This document shows, in pieces, positions 4,730 through 19,127 of a DNA stretch of 64,000 nt. Every line of letters begins with the position of its first letter. The stretch's first letter is position 1. A model generated the notes under the pieces. It was not told where the DNA came from. It was given only the letters and a program-made list of their open reading frames with translations, and did no database searches. The translations under genes were made by a program, and so were the position numbers. The DNA is from Arthrobacter ruber (lineage in GTDB: Bacteria > Actinomycetota > Actinomycetes > Actinomycetales > Micrococcaceae): assembly GCF_002954225.1 (NCBI RefSeq), contig NZ_PPTH01000015.1:310001-374000 (forward strand). The letters run 5' to 3'.

Positions 4730-5206
4730 TCAGGGCGCCGTGCGGGGACCGCGGGCGAGCAGCGGCTCCACGCGGAACGGGATGAGCTCGCCCATCGCGA
4801 GCGAGGTGTCGCACCGCTCCACGCCGTCGCAGGCGAGGATCTTGCCGTTGATGCGGAAGAGGTCCTCGGCGTCGACGGCGACCACCCGCACCAGGATGTC
4901 GGCCTGGCCCGTCAGTCCGAAGGCCTCGATGACCTCGGGCACCGCCGCGATGCTCCGCGTGATGGCCGCCAGCTTCTGCTGCTGCACGTGGACGTGGATG
5001 AACGCGGTCAGCGGATAGCCGAGCGACGCCGTGTTGATGCGCCGCTCGAACGAGAGGAAGACCGATTTCTTCTCGAGCTGCGCCATCCGTGCCTGGACGG
5101 TGTTCCGGGACAGCCCCAGCTTCTGCGCGAGGGCGACGACCGTGCGCCGGGGGTCCTTGGCCATCGCCTGCAGCAGGCGTGTGTCGGTGAGGTCCAGGGG
5201 TTGCAT
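4730..5206 (-). CDS. Lrp/AsnC-family transcriptional regulator
   Basis: A 158-residue Lrp/AsnC protein. An N-terminal winged helix-turn-helix (about residues 1-60, with TVVALAQKLGLSRNTVQARMAQLE) is followed by the RAM/effector domain (about 65-145, with AFIHVHVQQQKL and ILVRVVAVDAEDL). It is divergent from the branched-chain 2-oxoacid dehydrogenase operon, so it is the likely local regulator, responding to branched-chain amino or 2-oxo acids (BkdR-like role, inferred). The start is taken at the ATG of MQPLDL; a GTG six codons upstream is possible. A palindrome covers the start codon, which suggests autoregulation. Confidence 0.9.
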   Translation of the reverse strand: MQPLDLTDTRLLQAMAKDPRRTVVALAQKLGLSRNTVQARMAQLEKKSVFLSFERRINTASLGYPLTAFIHVHVQQQKLAAITRSIAAVPEVIEAFGLTGQADILVRVVAVDAEDLFRINGKILACDGVERCDTSLAMGELIPFRVEPLLARGPRTAP

Positions 5207-5249
5207 AGTGCGCAACGCTAACACGCCCGTTCGTGCCCGAATAGTGCAA
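5201..5249. promoter_or_regulatory. Candidate Lrp-type operators in the lrp-bkd divergent region
   Basis: An imperfect palindrome TTGCATAGTGCGCAA occupies 5201-5215, over the regulator start codon. A second copy of its core, ATAGTGCAA, lies at 5241-5249, 40 bases away on the bkd side. Lrp proteins bind spaced 15-base sites cooperatively, which fits this layout. The assignment to the neighbouring Lrp protein is inference. Confidence 0.5.
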
Positions 5250-5273
5250 TCTGCTCAGTCGAAGCGACAACGG

Positions 5274-5306
5274 TTGTGCCACCTGTTCCCTGTGAGTAGG
5301 GTCACA
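5274..5306 (+). promoter_or_regulatory. bkd promoter with perfect CRP/GlxR site
   Basis: TTGTGC (5274-5279), a 17-base spacer and TAGGGT (5297-5302) form a plausible sigma-A promoter for the operon. TGTGAGTAGGGTCACA (5291-5306) is an exact TGTGA-N6-TCACA match that contains the -10 hexamer. A CRP/GlxR protein bound here would block polymerase, so repression is the expected mode. The leader to the E1alpha ATG would be about 85 bases. Confidence 0.65.
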
Positions 5307-5393
5307 TTCACTCAGGGTAAAGGCGCCCGGAGCCCCTCCCGCCGTGCTGACAGGCCGGCGGAGGGTCGCCTGCGAGGACGAAGGTTGCGTGCA

Positions 5394-6596
5394 ATGGCTC
5401 AGGATGGCATCCTGCCGGGATCGGGATCCGAGGAGAGGGTCGAGGCCCCCGGGGAGACGGCCGGACAGACGGGCGGTACGGTCCACCCCGGACCCTCCCG
5501 CCCCGGCGCGGACGAGCCGGTCCAGCTCATCGACTCCTCCGGCGTCCGGCACCCGCACGACCACTACGACGCCCTCGTGGCCGACGTCGACGGCCCCGCC
5601 CTGCAGAAGCTCTACGAGGACATGGTGGTGGTGCGGCGCATCGACGCCGAGGCCACCGCGCTGCAGCGCCAGGGGGAGCTCGCGCTCTGGCCCCCGCTGC
5701 TCGGCCAGGAGGCGGCGCAGATCGGATCCGGCCGGGCCCTGCGATCCGACGACTTCGTCTTCTCCAGCTATCGCGAGAACGCCGTCGCCTACTGCCGCGG
5801 GGTGGACCTCGCGGACATCCTGCGCGTCTGGCGCGGCAACGCCTCCTCGGGCTGGGACCCCTACACCATCAACATGGCGACGCCGCAGGTCATCATCGGG
5901 GCGCAGACCCTCCACGCCACCGGCTACGCCATGGGCATCCTCAACGACGGCGCCGACGCCGTCGCCGTGACCTACTTCGGCGATGGCGCCACGAGCCAGG
6001 GCGACGTCAACGAGGCGATGGTCTTCGCCGCCAGCTACCAGGCGCCGGTGGTGTTCTTCTGCCAGAACAACCACTGGGCCATCTCGGAGCCGGTGGGGCT
6101 GCAGGCCCACGTGCCCATCGCGCGCCGCGCTCCCGGCTTCGGCATCCCCTCGGTGCGGGTCGACGGCAACGACGTTCTCGCATGCCTGGCCGTGACCCGC
6201 GAGGCCCTCGCCAGGGCACGCTCGGGCGGCGGACCCACCTTCATCGAGGCCGTGACCTACCGCATGGGACCGCACACGACGGCGGACGACCCGACGCGCT
6301 ACCGCGACGCCAACGAGCTCGAGGACTGGGCGGCCCGCGACCCGCTGGCGCGGCTCGCCACGCTGCTGGACTCGCGCGGCCTGCTCGAGGCCGACTACAC
6401 GGACGCGGTGAAGGCGAAGGCCGACGCCGTCGCCGCCGAACTGCGTGAGGGCTGCCTCTCGATGCCGGAACCGGCGCCGTCGGACGTCTTCCGGCACGTC
6501 TACAGCGAGCCCAACTCCTGGCTGGAGCGCCAGCAGGACCACTACGAGCGCTACCTCGCCTCCTTCACCCCCGCACCGCAGGAAGGACCCCGCTGA
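5394..6596 (+). CDS. bkdA: Branched-chain 2-oxoacid dehydrogenase E1 alpha
   Basis: A 400-residue thiamine-diphosphate-dependent E1 alpha subunit. The ThDP/Mg motif runs from GDG (196-198) to NN (225-226) with the usual spacing, and the phosphorylation-loop region YRMGPHTTADDPTRYRD is present. E1 decarboxylates the 2-oxoacid and acylates the E2 lipoyl group. The stop overlaps the ATG of E1 beta. The family cannot be split safely from pyruvate dehydrogenase by sequence alone; the divergent Lrp regulator, the nearby leucine-catabolic operon and the matching M. tuberculosis gene set favour branched-chain substrates. The first 40 residues are low-complexity and may not be structured. No E3 gene is nearby. 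Confidence 0.85.
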   Translation: MAQDGILPGSGSEERVEAPGETAGQTGGTVHPGPSRPGADEPVQLIDSSGVRHPHDHYDALVADVDGPALQKLYEDMVVVRRIDAEATALQRQGELALWPPLLGQEAAQIGSGRALRSDDFVFSSYRENAVAYCRGVDLADILRVWRGNASSGWDPYTINMATPQVIIGAQTLHATGYAMGILNDGADAVAVTYFGDGATSQGDVNEAMVFAASYQAPVVFFCQNNHWAISEPVGLQAHVPIARRAPGFGIPSVRVDGNDVLACLAVTREALARARSGGGPTFIEAVTYRMGPHTTADDPTRYRDANELEDWAARDPLARLATLLDSRGLLEADYTDAVKAKADAVAAELREGCLSMPEPAPSDVFRHVYSEPNSWLERQQDHYERYLASFTPAPQEGPR

Positions 6597-7630
6597 TGTC
6601 CACCATGACCTTCGGCCGTGCGATCAATGCAGGCCTGCGCCGCGCCATGGACAACGACCCCAAGGTGGTCCTCATGGGCGAGGACATCGGCAAGCTCGGA
6701 GGGGTCTTCCGGATCACCGACGGGCTGCAGAAGGATTTCGGCCCGCACCGCGTCCTCGACAGCCCGCTGGCCGAGGCCGGCATCATGGGCACCGCCGTCG
6801 GCATGGCCTACCGCGGGTACCGCCCGGTGGTGGAGATCCAGTTCGACGGCTTCATCTACCCGGCGTTCGACCAGATCGTGTGCCAGGTGGCGAAGCTGCA
6901 CTACCGCACGCAGGGCGCGGTGAAGATGCCCATCACCATCCGCGTGCCCTTCGGCGGCGGCATCGGCTCGCCCGAGCACCACTCGGAGTCGCCCGAGGCG
7001 TACTTCACCCACACCTCCGGCCTGCGCGTGGTCAGCGTCTCGAACCCGCAGGACGCCTACACGATGATCCAGCAGGCCATCGCCAGCGACGACCCCGTGC
7101 TGTACTTCGAGCCCAAGCGCCGCTACCACGTCAAGGGCGAGGTGGACGAGGCAGCGGATCCCGCGTCGTCGGACATGGGGGCCGCACGCGTGGTCACCGA
7201 GGGGACGGACGTCACGCTCGTGACCTACGGCCCGCTCGTGCCGACCGCCCGCGATGCCGCCGTCGCCGCGTCCGACGACGGCACCTCGATCGAGGTCATC
7301 GACCTCCGGTCGCTCGCCCCGATCGACTTCGCGACCGTCGAGGCGTCCGTCCGCAAGACCGGCCGGCTCGTCGTCACGCACGAGGCCGCGCAGTCCGGCG
7401 GGCTCGGTGCGGAGATCGCCGCGAGCATCACGGAGCGGTGCTTCGACTACCTCGAGCACGCCCCCGTGCGCATCACGGGCTTCGACATCCCCTACCCGTA
7501 CTCCAAGCTCGAGTTCCACCACCTCCCGGACCTCGACCGGATCCTCGACGGTGTGGACCGCGTGATGCGCCGACCGAACTCCCTGAGCGGGCTCGAGGGC
7601 GCGCCCACCCCCCAAGGAGCAGCACAGTGA
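6596..7630 (+). CDS. bkdB: Branched-chain 2-oxoacid dehydrogenase E1 beta
   Basis: A 344-residue transketolase-like E1 beta subunit that pairs with E1 alpha in an alpha2-beta2 E1. The cofactor-contacting glutamate is Glu29 in VLMGEDIGKLGG. The middle region carries RVPFGGGIGSPEHHSESPEA and the C-terminal domain DLRSLAPIDFATVEASV, both typical of branched-chain and pyruvate E1 beta chains. The ATG overlaps the E1 alpha stop (TGATG), and the gene ends overlapping the GTG of E2, so all three are translationally coupled. Confidence 0.88.
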   Translation: MSTMTFGRAINAGLRRAMDNDPKVVLMGEDIGKLGGVFRITDGLQKDFGPHRVLDSPLAEAGIMGTAVGMAYRGYRPVVEIQFDGFIYPAFDQIVCQVAKLHYRTQGAVKMPITIRVPFGGGIGSPEHHSESPEAYFTHTSGLRVVSVSNPQDAYTMIQQAIASDDPVLYFEPKRRYHVKGEVDEAADPASSDMGAARVVTEGTDVTLVTYGPLVPTARDAAVAASDDGTSIEVIDLRSLAPIDFATVEASVRKTGRLVVTHEAAQSGGLGAEIAASITERCFDYLEHAPVRITGFDIPYPYSKLEFHHLPDLDRILDGVDRVMRRPNSLSGLEGAPTPQGAAQ

Positions 7631-9096
7631 CGGCCACGACCTCGACCACCGTCCGCGAGTTCCGCCTGCCCGACCTCGGCGAGGGGCTCACGGAGTCGGA
7701 GATCGTGCAGTGGCACGTCGCCGAGGGAGACACCGTGGAGCTGAACCAGATCATCGCCGACGTCGAGACCGCCAAGGCCGTGGTCGAACTGCCCTCGCCC
7801 TACGCCGGCGTCGTCGTCCGCCTCCACGAGCCGGCCGGGACCACCGTCGATGTCGGAGCACCGATCGTCTCCTTCGCGGTGGCGGGGGAGTACGACGGCG
7901 GCGTCCCCGCGGCAGGTGAACACGGTCCTGCCGTGCGTGCGGTGCTTCCCGGCCCGTCCGTCGCCGACGAGGTACCTGCGAAGCGCGAACCGAATCTCGT
8001 GGGCTACGGGGCGGCGATCGAGAAGGGCGGGCGTCCGCAGCGTCGCCACCGCGTGCTTCCGCCATCGACGCCTGCGATGGCGCCGGCCGGTTCGGCACAG
8101 GTTGCCGTGATGGCGCAGATCCCGTCACCGGTGCCGGCTGCCGTCGCGCCGGCACCCTCCGGCCGCGTGCTCGCCGAGCGCCCGCGGTCCACTCCTCCCG
8201 TCCGCAAGCTCGCGCGTGACCTGGGCATCCCGCTCGACGGACTGCAGGGCACCGGTCCCGGTGCCCTGATCACGCGGGCCGACGTCCTCGCCGCCCTGGC
8301 AGGGATCGAGGGCAGTGCTGGAGCATCGTCGTCCGCGCCGTCCCTCCCGTCGCAGGCCTCATCGCCGGACCCGCGCCAGGCTGCACATCCGGCAGCGGGT
8401 CAGACACGTATCCCGATCAGGGGGGTGCGGAAGCACACGGCCGCCGCCATGGTCGCGAGCGCCTTCACGGCACCGCACGTCACCGAGTTCCTCACCATCG
8501 ACGTCACGCCGACCATCGACCTGCTGGCGGAGCTGAAGCAGACCCGCGCGTTCGAGGGGATCAGGGTCACACCGCTGACCATCGTGGCGAAGGCCGTGTG
8601 CATCGCGCTCCAACGCAATCCGAGCCTCAACTCGTCGTGGGACGAGGCGACGCAGGAGATCGTGCAGTACGCGGACGTGAACCTCGGCATCGCCGCCGCC
8701 ACCCCGCGCGGCCTGCTCGTACCGCACATCAGGGCCGCGCAATCCCTGGCGCTCGCGGACCTCGCACGATCCCTCACGGCGCTGACCGAGACCGCGCGGG
8801 CGGGGAAGACCTCCCCGGCGGACCTGTCCGGCGGGACGATCACGATCACCAACATCGGCGTCTTCGGGATCGATGCGGGAACACCGATCCTCAATCCGGG
8901 TGAGGCTGCAATCCTGGCGGTCGGAGCCGTGCGTCGCATGCCGTGGGAGTACCAGGACGCCGTCGCCCTCCGCTCGGTGCTGACGCTCAGCCTGTCCTTC
9001 GACCACCGCCTCGTGGACGGTGAGCAGGGGTCGCGCTTCCTCGCGGACGTGGGGACGATCCTCCGGAATCCGGCCATGGCCCTCACGATGGTGTGA
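7627..9096 (+). CDS. bkdC: Dihydrolipoyl acyltransferase E2
   Basis: A 489-residue E2 core protein. A single N-terminal lipoyl domain (about 9-85) carries the lipoyl-lysine Lys50 in DVETAKAVVE. A peripheral-subunit-binding domain follows at about 195-230 (PPVRKLARDLGIPLDGLQG), then the catalytic acyltransferase domain with the active-site motif FDHRLVDGEQG near the C terminus. Alanine/proline-rich linkers separate the domains. It transfers the acyl group from lipoamide to CoA. The GTG start overlaps the E1 beta stop. The single lipoyl domain is usual for bkd E2s, whereas actinobacterial pyruvate/oxoglutarate E2s often have more. Confidence 0.88.
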   Translation: MTATTSTTVREFRLPDLGEGLTESEIVQWHVAEGDTVELNQIIADVETAKAVVELPSPYAGVVVRLHEPAGTTVDVGAPIVSFAVAGEYDGGVPAAGEHGPAVRAVLPGPSVADEVPAKREPNLVGYGAAIEKGGRPQRRHRVLPPSTPAMAPAGSAQVAVMAQIPSPVPAAVAPAPSGRVLAERPRSTPPVRKLARDLGIPLDGLQGTGPGALITRADVLAALAGIEGSAGASSSAPSLPSQASSPDPRQAAHPAAGQTRIPIRGVRKHTAAAMVASAFTAPHVTEFLTIDVTPTIDLLAELKQTRAFEGIRVTPLTIVAKAVCIALQRNPSLNSSWDEATQEIVQYADVNLGIAAATPRGLLVPHIRAAQSLALADLARSLTALTETARAGKTSPADLSGGTITITNIGVFGIDAGTPILNPGEAAILAVGAVRRMPWEYQDAVALRSVLTLSLSFDHRLVDGEQGSRFLADVGTILRNPAMALTMV

Positions 9097-10727: not shown

Positions 10728-11339
10728 TCATGCGGTCAGGGCGGCCCACGCCATGTCCTGCAGCAGGTCGCGGAGCAGCGTGAGCTCGCGCGGCGAGGTG
10801 GTGCGGCGCGTGGTGTGCGGGGTCGAGTTGATGAGGCCGAAGACGGCGTGCACCTTGCGCCGCAGCAGCGCCCGGTCCGTGCGGGGCAGGAAGGCGCCGA
10901 GCTCGTCCACCCACACCTGCACGTAGCTGCGCTGCAGCGACCGCACGGCGCGCTGGTCGTCGTGCGGGAGGGAACCCAGATCACGGTCCTGGACGCGGAT
11001 GACGTCCGCGTTGTTCAGGGCGAACTCCACCTGGAACCGGATGAGCCCGCGCAGGGCCTCCTCCGGGGAGGGCGCCCCGGCCGCGACGGCACGGCCACCC
11101 TCGAGCAGGTCCTCGCTGACCCCGGTGAGGAGGGCGGAGAGGACGGAGGGCTTGCCGGTGAAGTGCCGGTAGACGGCCGGACCGCTGACGCCGGCGGCGG
11201 CACCGAGGTCCTCGATGGACACGCCGTTGTAGCCGCGGTCGGCGAAGAGCTGGGCGGCGGCGTCGAGCAGCGCTGCCCGACGGCTCGCCTTCGCGATGCT
11301 TCGACCGGTCACGGGGACCGCGGTGGGTGACGCCTCCAT
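10728..11339 (-). CDS. TetR-family regulator of the leucine-type operon
   Basis: A 203-residue TetR protein. The N-terminal helix-turn-helix reads RGYNGVSIEDLGAAAGVSGPAVYRHF, and the C-terminal all-helical ligand domain has a TetR_C_33-like look (EEALRGLIRFQVEFALNNADVIRVQDRDL). It is divergent from the acyl-CoA carboxylase operon and very probably controls it in response to an acyl-CoA or catabolic intermediate. The start is the ATG of MEASP, preceded by AGAAGGAC; a longer reading adds an arginine-rich arm without a ribosome-binding site. Confidence 0.9.
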   Translation of the reverse strand: MEASPTAVPVTGRSIAKASRRAALLDAAAQLFADRGYNGVSIEDLGAAAGVSGPAVYRHFTGKPSVLSALLTGVSEDLLEGGRAVAAGAPSPEEALRGLIRFQVEFALNNADVIRVQDRDLGSLPHDDQRAVRSLQRSYVQVWVDELGAFLPRTDRALLRRKVHAVFGLINSTPHTTRRTTSPRELTLLRDLLQDMAWAALTA

Positions 11340-11393
11340 GTCGGTCCTTCTTCTCCGCCGGGGGATTCCTCCCCTCATTGTCATGGACATCCG

Positions 11394-11439
11394 GGTTAAT
11401 GACCACTAACCTGAGTTCGGTTAGCGAATGCTAACTGAA
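11394..11439. promoter_or_regulatory. Two palindromic TetR operator candidates
   Basis: The main site, 11416-11439, has the core GTTAGC-GAAT-GCTAAC (11420-11435) and flanks that stay symmetric to 24 bases with one mismatch. A second, looser site has GGTTA at 11394-11398 and TAACC at 11407-11411. Both lie in the 119-base divergent region between the TetR gene and the carboxylase gene, the main one only 19 bases before the carboxylase ATG, so a bound repressor would block the operon promoter. Confidence 0.7.
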
Positions 11440-11458
11440 CAGCGCGAGGAAGTAGTCG

Positions 11459-13066
11459 ATGGAGACTCTGGCATCGAAGGTCGATCCGCTCTCGGCGGCG
11501 TTCTCCGCGAACGCGGCGGCCCAGGCGGAACTGGTCGGCGACCTCCGCCGTCGCCTGGCCACGGCAGCCCTGGGCGGCCCCGAACGCTCCCGCGACCGGC
11601 ACATCGCCCGCGGCAAGCTCCTGCCGCGTGAGCGCATCGACCACCTGCTCGACGACGGCAGCCCCTTCCTCGAGATCGCGCCCCTGGCCGCGAACGGGAT
11701 GTACGACGACGAGTGCCCGGGCGCAGGCGTCATCGCCGGGATCGGGCTCGTCCACGGCCGCCACGTCCTCGTGATCTCCAACGACGCCACCGTCAAGGGC
11801 GGGACGTACTACCCGATGACGGTCAAGAAGCACCTCCGGGCACAGGAGATCGCCCTCGAGAACAATCTGCCGTGCGTGTACCTCGTCGACTCGGGCGGGG
11901 CGTTCCTGCCGCGGCAGGACGAGGTCTTCCCCGACCGGAACCACTTCGGCCGGATCTTCTACAACCAGGCCACCATGTCGGCCCGGAAGATCCCGCAGAT
12001 CGCGGCCGTGCTGGGAAGCTGCACCGCCGGTGGTGCCTACGTGCCGGCCATGAGCGACGAGACCGTCATCGTCCGGAACCAGGGCACCATCTTCCTGGGC
12101 GGCCCGCCCCTCGTGAAAGCAGCCATCGGCGAGGTGGTCACGGCGGAGGAGCTCGGTGGCGGCGACGTCCACTCCCGGATCTCCGGCGTCACCGACCATC
12201 TCGCCGAGAACGACCAGCACGCGCTGGAGATCGTCCGCGACATCATCGCCACCCTGCCGCCGGCCCTGCCGACGACGGCGGCGCAGACGCCCGTCCTCGA
12301 ACCCGCCGTCGCGCCCGACGAGCTCTACGGCGCCGTGCCGGTCGACGTCAACGCCTCCTACGACGCCCGGGAGGTCATCGCGCGGATCGTCGACGGTTCC
12401 CTGTTCCACGAGTTCAAGCGCGAGTACGGCACCACCCTCGTCACCGGCTTCGCGACCATCCATGGACACCGTGTGGGCATCGTCGCCAACAACGGCGTGC
12501 TGTTCAGCGAGTCCGCACTCAAGGGCGCCCACTTCATCGAGCTCTGCGACCAGCGCGGCGTACCCCTGGTGTTCCTGCAGAACCTGTCCGGCTTCATGGT
12601 GGGCAAGGACTACGAGGCCGGCGGCATCGCGAAGAACGGCGCCAAGATGGTCACCGCCGTCGCCACCGCGCGCGTGCCGAAGCTCACCGTGGTCGTCGGA
12701 GGGTCCTTTGGGGCCGGCAACTACTCGATGTGCGGCCGGGCATTCTCGCCCCGGTTCCTGTGGATGTGGCCGGCGAGCCGCATCTCCGTGATGGGTGGCA
12801 ACCAGGCGTCGTCGGTGCTCGCCACCGTCAAGCGGGACCAGCTCGAGGCGCGCGGCGAACAGTGGCCGTCCGACGAGGAGGAGGCGTTCAGGGCGCCGAT
12901 CCGCGACCAGTACGAGGCGCAGGGCAACCCCTACTACTCGACGGCGCGCCTGTGGGACGACGGCGTGATCGACCCCGCGGACACCCGCACCGTGCTCGGC
13001 CTCGCGCTCGATGTCTGCGCCAACGCGTCCCTGCCCGATACCTCCTTCGGCCTCTTCCGGATGTGA
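11459..13066 (+). CDS. accD1: Acyl-CoA carboxylase carboxyltransferase (beta) subunit
   Basis: A 535-residue biotin-dependent carboxyltransferase of the methylcrotonyl-CoA carboxylase class, with N- and C-terminal crotonase-fold halves. Recognisable blocks are [17 protein letters not shown], the oxyanion regions [16 protein letters not shown] and [19 protein letters not shown], and [13 protein letters not shown]. It moves CO2 from carboxybiotin to a branched enoyl-CoA, expected to be 3-methylcrotonyl-CoA of leucine breakdown. It is the first gene of the operon and ends 4 bases before its biotin carboxylase partner. The start is the ATG at 11459 after GAGGAAG. Confidence 0.92.
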
Positions 13067-13070
13067 CCCG

Positions 13071-15128
13071 ATGATCTCCGATTCCACCCCCGGTACGACC
13101 CCGTGGGCCTTCGACACCGTCCTGGTGGCCAACCGCGGCGAGATCGCCTGCCGCGTGATCCGCTCCGTCCGGGCCCTGGGCCTGCGCTCCGTCGCGGTGT
13201 ACAGCGACGCCGACGCCGGTGCCCAGCACGTCCTCGAGGCGGACGTCGCTATCCGCATCGGTACCGCGGCGCCGTCGGAGAGCTATCTGTCCATCCCCGC
13301 GGTCGTGGAGGCCTGCCGCCGCACCGGAGCGGGCGCGGTCCACCCCGGCTACGGGTTCCTCAGTGAGAACGCGGCCTTCGCCGACGCACTGCGCGACGCC
13401 GGGATCGTGTTCATCGGTCCGAGCGTGCACGCGCTCGACGTCATGGGGGACAAGATCCGCTCGAAGAACCACGTGGCCGGCTTCGGCGTGCCCGTGGTCC
13501 CCGGTATCGCCGAACCGGGTCTGTCCGACGACGACCTGGTCAGCGCCGCCGCGGACGTCGGCTTCCCCCTGCTCATCAAGCCGTCCGCCGGCGGCGGCGG
13601 CAAGGGCATGCACGCCGTCCACCGCGCCGAGGACCTCCCCGACGTGCTCGCCACCGCCCGGCGCGTCGCGGCCCGTGCGTTCGGCGACGACACCCTGTTC
13701 CTGGAACGGCTCATCGAACGTCCCCGCCACATCGAGGTGCAGGTGCTCGCCGACGGCCACGGCTCCGTCATCCACCTCGGCGAGCGCGAGTGCTCGCTGC
13801 AGCGTCGGCACCAGAAGGTCATCGAGGAGGCGCCGTCGGCCCTGCTCGACGAGCCGACACGCCGCCGCATCGGCGAGGCGGCCTGCGCCGCGGCCCGCAG
13901 CGTCGACTACACCGGCGCCGGGACCGTGGAGTTCCTCGTGTCCGACGCCGCACCCGACGAGTTCTTCTTCATGGAGATGAACACGCGCCTGCAGGTGGAG
14001 CACCCCGTCACGGAACTCGTGACCGGCGTCGACCTCGTCGAATGGCAGATCCGCATCGCCGCCGGTGAGCCGCTGCCGCTCACGCAGGACGACGTCGTCC
14101 TCACCGGTCACGCCGTCGAGGCCCGCGTGTACGCCGAGAACCCCGAGGCCGGGTTCCTCCCATCCACCGGGACCGTCCTGGCGCTCGCCGAGCCGACCGG
14201 TGAGGGCATCCGCGTGGACAGCTCGCTACTGCCCGGTGGCACGATCTCCTCGTCCTACGATCCGATGCTCTCCAAGGTCATCGCCTGGGGAGCGGACCGG
14301 CGCGAGGCTCTCGACCGCCTCGACGCCGCCCTCGCCGGCACCGTTGTGCTCGGCGTGGACACGAACATCGAATACCTCCGCCTCCTCGTGAACGACGACG
14401 ACGTACGGGCAGCCCGGCTCGACACGACCCTGATCGAGCGCAAGCTCCCGGCCCTCGCCTTCCGTCACCTGGGCGCGGAGGACCTCGCCCTCGCTGCCGT
14501 GCTGCTCGTCGAGGCCGGGCTCGAGGCGGTCCCGGGCGGTTCGCCCTGGCACCGCGGTGACGGGTTCAGGCTCGGCACACCCCGACCACGGATGGTGACG
14601 CTGGAGGCCGACGGGTCCACGACCCCGGTCCGGCTCCTGCGCACCGACGGGGCATGGGAGGCGACGATCGAGGGCGCGACCCACACCGTCGATGTCGACG
14701 CCGGCGGAGCGACCATCGACGGTGTGCGATCCCGCCGCTCCTACCGGGTGGACGGCGACACCGTGTGGCTGGGCGACGCCGGGTGGTCCGCCCGCGTGCG
14801 TCGACCGGGCCGACGCGAACTGCTCGACGCCGCCCTGTCCCGCATCTCACGAGCGGAAGGATCGGCCGACCCGCTGGTCCGCAGCCCCATGCCGGGCACC
14901 GTGGTGTCCGTGTCCGTCGAGGACGGCGCCGTCGTCGAGGCGGGGGACGTCCTCGTGGCCGTCGAGGCCATGAAGATGGAACACCAGCTCACCGCCGCGC
15001 TCGCCGGCGTCGTCCGCCTGTCCCTGAAGCCCGGGGACCTCGTGAAGGCACAGCAGGTCCTCGCAACCATCGAAGCCGCCCCCGAGGGCGGCCCGGCAAC
15101 CATCTCCACGGAAGGCAGCGCAGCATGA
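13071..15128 (+). CDS. accA1: Acyl-CoA carboxylase biotin carboxylase/BCCP (alpha) subunit
   Basis: A 685-residue alpha chain with three parts: a biotin carboxylase domain (about 15-450; [15 protein letters not shown], the glycine-rich ATP loop [28 protein letters not shown]), a linker/BT region, and a C-terminal biotinyl domain with Lys635 in EAMKMEH. It charges biotin with CO2 for the beta subunit encoded just upstream. The start is the ATG at 13071, four bases after the beta stop; an earlier in-frame start would lie inside the beta gene. The stop overlaps the acyl-CoA dehydrogenase start. Confidence 0.93.
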
Positions 15129-16297
15129 ATTTCGAACTGAGCGAGGAGTACCAGGACCTCGTCGACACCGTCCGCGAGTTCGCCGACGAGGTCGTGGCAC
15201 CCGTCTCCGCCAAGCACGACGCCGAGCACAGCTTCCCCTACGAGGTGGTCAAGCAGATGGGGGACATGGGCCTGTTCGGTCTGCCGTTCCCCGAGGAGTA
15301 CGGGGGCATGGGCGGGGACTACTTCGCGCTGTGCCTGGCGCTCGAGCAGCTGGCACGCGTCGACCAGTCGGTGGCCATCACCCTCGAGGCCGGTGTCTCG
15401 CTGGGGGCCATGCCGGTCTACCGCTTCGGCACCGAGGAGCAGAAGCAGCAGTGGCTGCCCTCCCTCGCCGCCGGCCAGGCCCTCGGCGGCTTCGGCCTCA
15501 CCGAGTCCGAGGCCGGGTCCGACGCCTCGGGCACCAAGACGACGGCCACCCTCGAGCAGGGCGCCGACGGTCCCGAATGGGTGATCAACGGCACCAAGGA
15601 GTTCATTACGAACTCGGGGACCGACATCACCTCGCTGGTGACCGTCACCGCGGTGACCGGCACCTCCCAGCGGCCGGACGGCACGGTGAAGAAGGAGATC
15701 TCCACCATCCTCGTCCCCTCGGACACGCCGGGCTTCACGGCCGAGAAGGCCTACAACAAGGTGGGCTGGAACGCATCGGACACCCACCCGCTCACCCTCC
15801 GGGACGTCCGGGTCCCCGAGGCGAACCTGCTGGGCACACGCGGCCGGGGCTACGCGAATTTCCTGCAGATCCTCGACGAGGGCCGGATCGCCATCGCCGC
15901 GCTCGCGACCGGCGCCGCGCAGGGCTGTGTGGAGCAGTCCATCCGGTACGCGGGGGAGCGCATGGCGTTCGGCAGCACCATCGGCGCCTACCAGTCCATC
16001 CAGTTCAAGATCGCCCGCATGCAGGTCCGTGCGCACACCGCGCGCCTGGCCTACTACGACGCCGCCTCGCGCATGCTCGCGGGCAAGCCGTTCAAGACGC
16101 AGGCCTCCATCGCGAAGCTCGTGGCCGGCGAGGCCGCCATGGACAACGCACGCGATGCGACGCAGATCTTCGGCGGCTACGGTTTCATCAACGAGTTCGT
16201 GGTGTCGAGGCACTACCGTGACTCGAAGATCCTCGAGATCGGTGAGGGGACCACGGAGGTCCAGCTCATGCTGATCGCGAGGGAACTCGGCCTCTAG
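15125..16297 (+). CDS. fadE19: Acyl-CoA dehydrogenase of the leucine-type operon
   Basis: A 390-residue FAD-dependent acyl-CoA dehydrogenase. It has the N-terminal helical domain, the middle-domain signature [13 protein letters not shown], and the C-terminal [20 protein letters not shown] and QIFGGYGF motifs. The catalytic glutamate lies at Glu374 in EIGEGTTEV, the short/medium-chain position; the helix-G position used by isovaleryl-CoA dehydrogenases reads LDEGR, with glycine where those enzymes have glutamate. It may therefore act on another branched or short acyl-CoA, or be an isovaleryl-CoA dehydrogenase with a moved base. It overlaps the alpha-subunit stop (ATGA). Confidence 0.9.
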
Positions 16298-16352
16298 GCC
16301 GGTCCGACCAGGCCGTCGGCGGGTTCGGCAGCGGCGACACGAAGGAGAAGCA

Positions 16353-17150
16353 GTGATCGACAAGGTGGTTGGCAGTGCGGCGGAGGCCGTCGCGGACATC
16401 CCCGACGGCGCGTCCCTCGCCGTCGGCGGATTCGGACTGTGCGGCATCCCGGTGACACTCATCGACGCCCTGCACGCGCAGGGGACGGCGGAGCTCGAGA
16501 CGGTGAGCAACAACTGCGGCGTGGACGACTGGGGTCTCGGCATCCTGCTGTCCGACCACCGCATCCGCCGTACCGTCAGCTCCTACGTGGGCGAGAACAA
16601 GGAGTTCGCGCGCCAGTATCTCTCGGGCGAGCTCGAGGTGGAGCTGACCCCGCAGGGCACCCTCGCCGAGAAGCTCCGTGCGGGCGGTGCGGGCATCCCC
16701 GCGTTCTTCACGACGGCGGGGGTCGGCACCCAGGTCAGCGAGGGGGGCCTTCCCCAGCGCTACGACACCGAGGGCAACGTCGCCGTCGCGTCGAAGCCCA
16801 AGGAGGTGCGGTCCTTCGACGGCGTCGACTACGTGCTCGAGGAGTCCCTGCGGCCCGACTACGCGCTCGTGCATGCGTGGAAGGGCGACCGCCACGGCAA
16901 CCTCGTCTTCCACGCCACCGCGATGAACTTCAACCCCCTCTGCGCCCAGGCCGGTGCGATCACGATCGCGGAGGTCGAGGAACTCGTGGAGCCCGGCGAG
17001 CTCGACCCAGGGGAGATCCACACGCCGGGCATCTTCGTGCAGCGCGTCGTCGTGGCGCCCGGCGTGGAGAAGCGCGTGGAGAAGCGCACCGTGTCCCTCG
17101 ATGGTTCCCCCGATCCGCAGGCCGGCGTCAACGCACCCGAAGGAGCATGA
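16353..17150 (+). CDS. scoA: 3-oxoacid CoA-transferase subunit A
   Basis: A 265-residue family I CoA-transferase alpha subunit. It has the glycine-rich [16 protein letters not shown] near the N terminus and the later blocks [16 protein letters not shown] and [17 protein letters not shown]. With ScoB it moves CoA between succinyl-CoA and acetoacetate or a related acid, the last step of leucine breakdown, or it may activate itaconate in the alternative route. It follows the dehydrogenase by 55 bases with a clear AAGGAGAAG site. It is somewhat longer than many alpha subunits (about 230-250) because of its C-terminal arm. Confidence 0.93.
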
Positions 17151-17803
17151 GCATGGCACTGACCCGGAACGAACTCGCGGCTCGAGTCGCCCAGGAACTC
17201 CAGAACGGCCAGTACGTGAACCTGGGCATCGGGATGCCCACGCTGATCCCGAACTACATCCCCGACGGCGTGGAGGTGGTGCTGCACTGCGAGAACGGCA
17301 TCCTCGGCGTCGGCCCGTATCCGACGGAGGACGCGGTGGACCCGGACCTCATCAATGCGGGCAAGGAGACCGTCACGGCCAACGCCGGGGCGGCGTTCTT
17401 CGACTCCGCATCGTCGTTCGGCATGATCCGTGGGGGGCACGTGGACGTCGCCGTCCTCGGGGCCATGGAGGTCGCGCAGAACGGCGATCTCGCCAACTGG
17501 ATGGTCCCGGGCAAGATGGTCAAGGGCATGGGCGGCGCGATGGACCTCGTGTTCGGTGCCAAGCGCGTGATCGTCATGATGGAGCACGTGGACCGTGCCG
17601 GTCGCCCGAAGATCGTCGAGGCCTGCTCGCTGCCGCTGACCGGCAAGGGCTGTGTGGACCGGATCATCACGGACCTCGCCGTGATCGACGTCGAACCGGA
17701 AGGTCTCGTGCTGCGTGAGACCGCTCCCGGTGTGGGCGTCGAGGACGTCGTCGCTGCCACCGGAGCGCGGCTGCGGATCGATCTCGCGGAAGCGGCTGCG
17801 TGA
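17147..17803 (+). CDS. scoB: 3-oxoacid CoA-transferase subunit B
   Basis: A 218-residue family I CoA-transferase beta subunit. The catalytic glutamate that forms the CoA thioester is Glu49 in [10 protein letters not shown]. Other typical blocks are [32 protein letters not shown] and [19 protein letters not shown]. The start is the ATG overlapping the ScoA stop, with AAGGAGC six bases before it; a second ATG two codons later would also serve. The end overlaps the GTG of the MaoC gene. Confidence 0.93.
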
Positions 17804-18306
17804 CCAGTTCCCTGCCGGAGCGCCGGGTCATCGAGCAGCGCGGGCTCTACTTCGACGAGCTAGAGGTCGGCGCCGTGTATGCGCACCGTCCCGGGCGTAC
17901 GCTCACGGAGGCGGACAACGTCCTGTTCACGACGCTGACGATGAACACGCAGGCACTGCACCTCGATGCCGCGTGGTCGGCGGGGCAGCCCTTCGGGCAG
18001 CGGCTCGTGAACTCGATGCTGACCCTCGCGACGCTCGTCGGGCAGTCCGTCTCGCAGCTGACGCAGGGCACCATCGTGGCGCAGCTCGGACTCACCGACG
18101 TCGCCTTCCCGAAGCCGTTGTTCCACGGTGACACCCTCTACACCGAGACGGAGATCACCGGTGTCCGGCCGTCGTCGTCCCGTCCCGGGCAGGGCGTCGT
18201 GACCATGGCCCACACCGGGCGGAACCAGCACGGGGACATCGTGGCGACGGCGACCCGCAGCGTGCTCATGTGGTCCTCGACGGCGCGGCAGTCGGTGCCT
18301 TCGTGA
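17800..18306 (+). CDS. MaoC-like hotdog hydratase
   Basis: A 168-residue MaoC-family protein, expected to be an R-specific enoyl-CoA hydratase. The hydratase motif is recognisable in [21 protein letters not shown], but the catalytic aspartate of the usual G-D-x-N-P-x-H motif is replaced: the residue five before the histidine is Asn. In M. tuberculosis the equivalent gene (Rv2499c) sits beside citE, and that hydratase/lyase pair has been linked to an R-specific leucine and itaconate route. Here it would take the place of the crotonase-type methylglutaconyl-CoA hydratase. It overlaps the genes on both sides by 4 bases. Confidence 0.85.
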
Positions 18307-19127
18307 GCGCCATCGTCCTGGGGCCGGCCCTGCTCTTCTGTCCCGCGGACCGTCCCGAACGGTACGCCAAAGCCGCCGACCGTTCCGACACCGTGATCCT
18401 CGACCTCGAGGACGCCGTCGCGCCGGCCGCGAAACCCGCCGCGCGCGGCGCGCTCGCCGACGCCGCGCTGTCCCCGCATCACACGGTGGTGAGGCTCAAC
18501 GCCGTCGGAACCCCCGACTTCGCCCTCGACTGCGAGGCCGTCCGCGGCACCGCGTATCGCACGGTGATGCTCGCGAAGACAGAGGTCCCCGAGGACGTCG
18601 CAGCGGTCCGGGACGTGCTCGGTGACGTGGACGTCATCGCGCTGTGCGAGACCGCCCGCGGCGTCGTGAACGCGGTGGACATCGCGGCGACCGAGGGCGT
18701 CGTCGCCCTCATGTGGGGCGCGGAGGATCTCGTGGCCTCCCTCGGGGGCACCTCGAGCAGGACACCTGCCGGGACCTATCGTGCCGTTGCACTCCAGGCG
18801 CGCTCACAGGTGCTGCTGGCGGCAGGTGCGGCAGGTGTGGGCTGCATCGATGCCGTGTACGTGGACATCGCCGATACCGAAGGGCTCACCGACGAGGCGG
18901 CCGACGCCGTCGCGTCGGGCTTCTCGGCGAAGGCGTGCATCCACCCGGGGCAGGTCGCTGCGGTCCGTGCCGCCTTCGCGCCCGACGACGCCGAGGTGGA
19001 GCGGGCCCGAGCGCTCCTGGCGGCGGCCGAGCACGAGCGCGGGGTCTTCACGTTCGAGGGTCGCATGGTGGACGAGCCGATCCTTCGCCATGCCCGCAGT
19101 GTCCTGGCGAGGGCGCAGCGCAGCTGA
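18303..19127 (+). CDS. citE: CitE-like beta-hydroxyacyl-CoA lyase
   Basis: A 274-residue HpcH/HpaI aldolase-citrate lyase beta-like TIM barrel. It begins LGPALLFCPADRPERYAKAADRSD, with DLEDAVAP, the Mg-binding glutamate in ALCETARGVV and the aspartate in MWGAEDLVA, and a C-terminal SAKACIHPGQV. Stand-alone CitE-like proteins cleave beta-hydroxyacyl-CoAs such as citramalyl-CoA, malyl-CoA or HMG-CoA; the M. tuberculosis protein in the same genomic setting (Rv2498c) acts in itaconate and leucine breakdown. It is the last gene of the operon. The GTG start overlaps the MaoC stop; an earlier in-frame ATG lies within MaoC. No strong terminator follows. Confidence 0.87.
   Translation: MSAIVLGPALLFCPADRPERYAKAADRSDTVILDLEDAVAPAAKPAARGALADAALSPHHTVVRLNAVGTPDFALDCEAVRGTAYRTVMLAKTEVPEDVAAVRDVLGDVDVIALCETARGVVNAVDIAATEGVVALMWGAEDLVASLGGTSSRTPAGTYRAVALQARSQVLLAAGAAGVGCIDAVYVDIADTEGLTDEAADAVASGFSAKACIHPGQVAAVRAAFAPDDAEVERARALLAAAEHERGVFTFEGRMVDEPILRHARSVLARAQRS

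Follow-up and report, generated by a model that had tools for sequence, protein, structure and literature searches.

The window, a 64,000-nucleotide stretch of the Arthrobacter ruber genome (assembly GCF_002954225.1, contig NZ_PPTH01000015.1, positions 310,001 to 374,000), carries an operon of seven enzyme genes at 11459-19127, which encode a carboxylase (AccD and AccA), an acyl-CoA dehydrogenase, a CoA-transferase (ScoA and ScoB), a MaoC-fold hydratase and a CitE-like lyase. Each of these genes has an open reading frame on the + strand and is backed by Pfam and NCBIfam matches, and four-base overlaps are found at four of the junctions, one of which depends on an inferred start. A TetR-family gene (10728-11390, - strand) is divergent from the operon, and the bkd genes lie about 1.6 kb beyond it. 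The features, with scores in bits, are as follows.

5031-6596, + strand: bkd E1 alpha; TIGR03181 444 bits (cut-off 411) and PF00676; coordinates of the open reading frame (ORF), in which the family match begins at residue 164
6596-7630, + strand: bkd E1 beta; NF006667 274 bits (below the cut-off of 321), PF02779 and PF02780
about 7630-9096, + strand: bkd E2 acyltransferase; E2 family matches, all below cut-off, in ORF 6445-9096; start approximate
10728-11390, - strand: TetR-family regulator, BkaR-like; NF050111 (SACE_7040 family) 245 bits, just below the cut-off of 250, and PF00440
11395-11410, no strand assigned: putative operator 1, GTTAATGACCACTAAC; identical to the core reported for BkaR
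11420-11435, no strand assigned: putative operator 2, GTTAGCGAATGCTAAC; differs from the core at two positions and lies 25 bp from operator 1
11459-13066, + strand: AccD, predicted methylcrotonyl-CoA carboxylase (MCC) beta subunit; best PDB match AccD1
13071-15128, + strand: AccA, biotin carboxylase/carrier alpha subunit; PF21139 (MCC alpha BT domain) 51 bits, cut-off 31
15125-16297, + strand: FadE19-like acyl-CoA dehydrogenase with isovaleryl-CoA as presumed substrate; PF02771, PF02770, PF00441 and PDB matches
16353-17150, + strand: ScoA, 3-oxoacid CoA-transferase subunit A; TIGR02429 over cut-off
17147-17803, + strand: ScoB, 3-oxoacid CoA-transferase subunit B; TIGR02428 over cut-off
17800-18306, + strand: MaoC-fold hydratase, Rv2499c-like by position; PF01575; NF038241 (RipB/Ich) 143 bits, below the cut-off of 340
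about 18303-19127, + strand: CitE-like beta-hydroxyacyl-CoA lyase, Rv2498c-like; NF038242 (RipC) 163 bits, below the cut-off of 375

The true start of the E1 alpha gene is probably later than the ORF start at 5031. For the lyase, we placed the start at a GTG at about 18303, overlapping the MaoC stop, while the longest ORF begins at 18270.

This layout bears out the first-pass annotation, which had described an operon of these seven genes with bkd genes close by, and had remarked that it held no crotonase-type hydratase and no 3-hydroxy-3-methylglutaryl-CoA (HMG-CoA) lyase; neither is found among the genes of 11459-19127. The annotation had also likened the gene content to that of Rv2498c-Rv2504c of Mycobacterium tuberculosis, and the same seven enzymes are indeed present in both. 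The order accD1-accA1-fadE-maoC-citE with a divergent TetR gene, by which the mycobacterial leucine operon is recognised, is found in the window as well.

The likeness appears to extend to regulation. The core of the BkaR operator has been published as GTTAnTnnnnAnTAAC (PMC3920632), and both operator-like sites of the window lie in the 68-base gap between the TetR gene and accD (11391-11458). Operator 1 is the only exact copy of the core in the genome, which is 3.66 Mb long and rated 100% complete; one-mismatch copies occur at two further places, and at one place for a reversed-pattern control. For a locus comparison, we took the 80 best loci from among 572 relatives and compared operators in the 62 loci that have a divergent TetR-AccD pair, leaving out 18 with truncated contigs or other arrangements. 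The gap holds an exact site in 48 of the 62 loci; if one mismatch is allowed the number rises to 61, and if two are allowed, to all 62. At up to one mismatch, 105 sites fall within 17.6 kb of gap sequence against none in 1.22 Mb outside (reversed control, 1 and 1); at up to two mismatches, 116 sites lie inside the gap (reversed control, 3). The TetR protein of the window is 50% identical, over 87% of its own length, to the divergent TetR of a mycobacteria-like locus (L131). The comparative count is the strongest new evidence and, on sequence grounds, ties the locus to the bkaR regulon beyond gene content. Because regulation appears to be shared, the case for a mycobacterial-type operon is stronger than the first-pass annotation knew; what is new here, at the level of sequence, is the pair of BkaR-type operators in the TetR-accD gap and the comparative site count.

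One of the two one-mismatch sites elsewhere in the genome (C9:16987-17002) is near the start of a thiolase ORF, by FadB-type genes. Through this site acetoacetyl-CoA thiolysis might belong to the same regulon, but the site could also be there by chance, as the reversed control gives one place too.

The lyase itself is 58% identical to Rv2498c (152 of 264 aligned positions), and a PDB search returned the Rv2498c structures at about 282 bits, with the next protein at 128. Eight active-site residues have been named for Rv2498c (PMC6689899), and all are kept in the lyase of the window: Arg64, Glu112, Met133, Gly135, Ala136, Glu137, Asp138 and Val181. Across the window lyase and 90 related sequences, Arg64, Glu112, Gly135 and Asp138 are invariant (91 of 91), while Met133 and Glu137 are kept in 90, Val181 in 88 (three have Ile) and Ala136 in 87. 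Rv2498c is reported to cleave (R)-HMG-CoA at 3.9e5 per M per s and (S)-citramalyl-CoA at 2.3e5, and its deletion mutant to grow neither on leucine nor on itaconate (PMC6689899). Internal stops noted in the lyases of five relatives hinted at decay; of these stops, the one that was read (G099, locus L139) proved to be the ordinary C-terminal stop.

Within the genome, Rv2498c has no close relative other than the operon lyase (one match at E 1e-45), though this is not the only CitE-like protein. Apart from the operon lyase, PF03328 occurs at four places: two give matches to HpaI-type aldolases (at 303 and 108 bits, short of the cut-off), one is a further hit under cut-off, and a second, distant CitE-like HpcH/HpaI protein lies on contig C16 (L107, 2039-2890; L143, 8036-8890), scoring 96 of the 375 bits needed for RipC and 42 bits with Rv2498c. 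This second protein has an ABC-transporter gene on one side and a divergent sugar-type transporter on the other, with a thiamine pyrophosphate enzyme farther on. Of 13 other ORFs selected around it, 12 were scanned; no MaoC or CoA-transferase family was found in these, and its region was rejected as an itaconate cluster on that count.

As for the remaining enzymes, the carboxylase is, as judged from sequence alone, a methylcrotonyl-CoA carboxylase: AccD matches AccD1 at 875 bits, MCC beta at 767 and geranyl-CoA carboxylase at 476, and AccA1-AccD1 has been shown to be MCC in mycobacteria (PMC4347857). The eleven best PDB rows for ScoA are all succinyl-CoA:3-ketoacid CoA-transferases, and ScoA reads as such an enzyme, which the leucine route would need anyway for the use of acetoacetate; ScoAB is the only PF01144 CoA-transferase pair of the genome. 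The MaoC protein has a motif N-x-Q-x-L-H-x-D, whose N, Q, L, H and D are invariant in 86 of 86 sequences (that of the window plus 85 relatives; no MaoC hit was obtained in five of the 90 loci). In (R)-hydratases, catalysis relies on an Asp-His pair. In phmmer alignments the motif Asn, residue 49 of the window MaoC, stands opposite an Asp of the related MaoC chain 1q6w and is matched by an Asn in the second half of beta-methylmalyl-CoA dehydratase.

Taken together, we consider it probable that the operon is the Micrococcaceae copy, orthologous by sequence, of the mycobacterial BkaR-controlled and (R)-specific leucine operon. We infer each enzyme step of the leucine route from similarity. The bkd products would give isovaleryl-CoA, which the acyl-CoA dehydrogenase would convert to 3-methylcrotonyl-CoA and AccA/AccD would then carboxylate to 3-methylglutaconyl-CoA. 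The MaoC hydratase would add water to yield (R)-HMG-CoA, the CitE-like lyase would split it into acetyl-CoA and acetoacetate, and ScoAB would activate acetoacetate with succinyl-CoA, while the BkaR-like TetR protein would repress the operon via the two palindromes in the accD promoter. The MaoC hydration is the weakest step of the proposed route, the role of the hydratase being presumed.

Comparison with known systems shows where the operon is alike and where it departs. In M. tuberculosis, Rv2498c-Rv2504c, bkd (Rv2495c-Rv2497c) and BkaR (Rv2506) present the same seven enzymes, the BkaR-like TetR, the operator and bkd nearby; however, ScoAB there comes before AccD and bkd lies downstream, whereas here ScoAB is between the dehydrogenase and MaoC, bkd is upstream past the TetR gene, and no fadD35 separates TetR from AccD. 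The M. smegmatis genes accD1-accA1-fadE19-hydratase-citE and bkd, which are divergent from and controlled by bkaR, are similarly arranged, but scoA is reported not to lie at that place in M. smegmatis (PMC3920632), while ScoAB is inside the operon here. The ict-ich-ccl (RipABC) genes of Pseudomonas and Yersinia likewise unite a CoA-transferase, a hydratase and a CitE-like lyase with the same type of chemistry; the locus of the window differs in its SCOT-like CoA-transferase, in the carboxylase and bkd genes that lie alongside, and in matches to the RipB and RipC models that fall under cut-off. With the classical liu operon the locus shares the carboxylase and acyl-CoA dehydrogenase steps, whereas the genome of the window has no recognised LiuE or LiuC-like crotonase.

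The first-pass annotation had advised a genome search for liuC and liuE. No NF004283 match (HMG-CoA lyase, LiuE) was found in the genome at E 1e-20, and PF00682 occurs at only two places, LeuA and pyruvate carboxylase. PF00378 occurs at four places. One is MenB and another a FadB/FadJ-type fusion; the remaining two are crotonases from a stretch that also holds paaA, paaC, paaE and paaZ, the first being next to paaE and the second about 0.9 kb from paaZ. The best PDB matches of these two crotonases are generic short-chain or PaaG-type enzymes, and for neither is a methylglutaconyl-CoA hydratase the best match; human AUH and 5jbw/5jbx, which we take to be LiuC, rank behind. From such matches, none of the four looks LiuC-like.

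We have also considered whether leucine could be degraded by the ordinary (S) route, in which a crotonase makes (S)-HMG-CoA, an unrecognised enzyme splits it and the CitE-like lyase does another job. Crotonases are present elsewhere in the genome, but two of them sit by paa genes and the others match MenB and FadB/FadJ; moreover, no HMG-CoA lyase was found in a genome rated complete, and a MaoC match is found together with the CitE-like gene in 76 of the 80 loci. We regard this route as improbable. Still less credible, and in our view close to negligible, is a reading of the lyase as CitE, a genuine subunit of citrate lyase, which automatic annotation might assign: TIGR01588 (citE) does match at 140 bits, but this is far under the cut-off of 443, and Rv2498c, the nearest solved protein, is reported not to cleave (S)-citryl-CoA (PMC6689899). 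A citrate lyase identity was rejected on both counts.

Whether the operon serves itaconate as well as leucine is a different matter. In such a bifunctional operon, ScoAB, a class III CoA-transferase or succinyl-CoA synthetase would activate itaconate, MaoC would act as itaconyl-CoA hydratase and the lyase would split (S)-citramalyl-CoA. It would fit this that Rv2498c runs both lyase reactions at similar efficiency (PMC6689899), and that a 2026 review credits itaconate CoA-transferase activity to Rv2503c and Rv3272 and hydratase activity to Rv3389c and to Rv2499c (which is not named in the main text of PMC6689899). Succinyl-CoA synthetase is reported to be capable of activating itaconate. Known itaconyl-CoA hydratases are reported to hydrate mesaconyl-C4-CoA; since this compound is, we infer, a one-carbon-shorter relative of 3-methylglutaconyl-CoA, a single hydratase and a single lyase could suffice for the two routes. 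The genome of the window also has two PF02515 CoA-transferases. On the other side, AccD, AccA and the dehydrogenase (three of the seven genes) and bkd have no place in an itaconate route, and RipB and RipC reach only 143 of 340 and 163 of 375 bits. The genome has no match to PF13336, the family that RipA presumably bears, with the control matching in 6 of 14. From the sequence, itaconate use by the operon is possible, and we hold a dual role for it to be an open prospect at somewhat under even chances. The first-pass annotation had also held that itaconate degradation was so far discussed mainly in pathogens. This does not stand, since PMC6689899 cites work from 1965 on the use of itaconate by Micrococcus sp. 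and a 2025 paper describes the pseudomonad-type itaconate cluster as widespread in soil bacteria; itaconate use outside pathogens is therefore not a new idea.

The operon is a real, well conserved and widely shared pathway, and is not unique to the window. Among the 80 loci, the order TetR-AccD-AccA-dehydrogenase-ScoA-ScoB-MaoC-CitE is found in 31, the same order without ScoAB in 30, and other or truncated arrangements in 19. Since 61 of the 80 best loci hold one of two full orders, and since the set recurs in mycobacteria-like genomes, the grouping is not due to chance. The nine nearest loci by lyase are named Arthrobacter (78 to 84% identity). With Micrococcaceae taken as the same family (149 genomes), 129 genomes hold a lyase relative (E 1e-45 or better), four of them with only 43-44% identity; in a phylum sample, with at most 8 candidates scored per genome, a lyase was found in 20 of 296 genomes. 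Ten regions were taken from the family and phylum samples. In L131, with a lyase 87.5% identical to Rv2498c, we found TetR, ScoAB, AccD, AccA, the dehydrogenase, MaoC, CitE, E1a, E1b, E2 and two exact operators, and in L135, with a lyase at 45%, the operon is absent around the lyase save for dehydrogenase-like genes at 29-32%.

HMG-CoA lyase over the NF004283 cut-off (246 bits) is present in 16 of the 149 genomes of the family, and any match at E 1e-20 in 47; in the other 31 of these, HMG-CoA-lyase-like proteins occur only under the cut-off, such matches scoring 105 to 244 bits. Counting any such match, 83 genomes have the lyase alone, 46 have both, 1 has only a sub-cut-off LiuE-like match and 19 have neither. 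Classical LiuE is uncommon in the family, yet it does not take the place of the CitE-like lyase.

Several observations weigh against our reading of the locus as a leucine operon of mycobacterial type. All 16 genomes with an over-cut-off HMG-CoA lyase also hold a lyase match, so LiuE and the CitE-like lyase, for which strict mutual exclusion was looked for, do not exclude each other. The two paa-region crotonases and the FadB-type fusion could hydrate methylglutaconyl-CoA. An identity of 58% to Rv2498c is no proof of substrate, and both MaoC and the lyase stay below the NCBIfam cut-offs for RipB and RipC. AccD matches one chain named propionyl-CoA carboxylase (PCC) beta (9tps) at 762 bits, near MCC beta, the other PCC-named chains being at 274 or less, and PDB chains named isovaleryl-CoA dehydrogenase rank well under other dehydrogenases for the acyl-CoA dehydrogenase. 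Within the window alone, the operator count at two mismatches is not above chance (17 of 100 shuffles reach 2), at this tolerance 25 sites fall outside the gap in the 62 loci (reversed control, 43), and the divergent TetR-AccD pair is missing in 18 of the 80 loci.

ScoAB varies in position: 31 loci have it after the dehydrogenase and ahead of MaoC, the mycobacteria-like L131 and L132 have it ahead of AccD, and 30 loci lack it. This suggests that ScoAB was separately recruited to, or lost from, the operon. Three loci (L016, L017 and L028) have AccD, AccA and CitE-like genes but gave hits for neither MaoC nor the dehydrogenase, and they lack BkaR-type sites at up to one mismatch; a TetR gene lies upstream, in the same direction as the operon, in L016 and L017. 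A partial check for a crotonase replacing MaoC found none in the ORFs scanned (4 of 13, 1 of 17 and 1 of 16, respectively). Judged by their predicted genes, these loci represent an operon variant in which the hydratase would have to be located elsewhere.

Beyond the 3' end of the operon in the window lie genes for a RibD-C-domain protein, a DUF222 protein and dxr. Elsewhere in the genome, a second E1-alpha gene is found just past the phenylacetate genes (contig C15, 2149-3339 of locus L105), and the genome may have two keto-acid dehydrogenase sets.

We found no paper on this operon in Micrococcaceae in the open literature searched. The (R)-HMG-CoA route was reported as unprecedented in M. tuberculosis. 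We would like to suggest, tentatively and with rather more doubt than conviction, that Micrococcaceae and other Micrococcales may ordinarily degrade leucine by this route, governed by a single conserved BkaR-type switch and with the mycobacterial pathway as only one of its branches, and that the MaoC branch with its invariant Asn49 may use a different catalytic set for carboxylated beta-methyl enoyl-CoAs, perhaps aided by the carboxylate of the substrate itself. Our results suggest that the 'CitE' label on this lyase would be wrong, and that the lyase is mainly a leucine enzyme also able to handle itaconate rather than a special answer to the macrophage. A pathway worked out in mycobacteria would be extended to the Arthrobacter group, in which the MaoC hydration and CoA-transferase steps could be tested without a pathogen.

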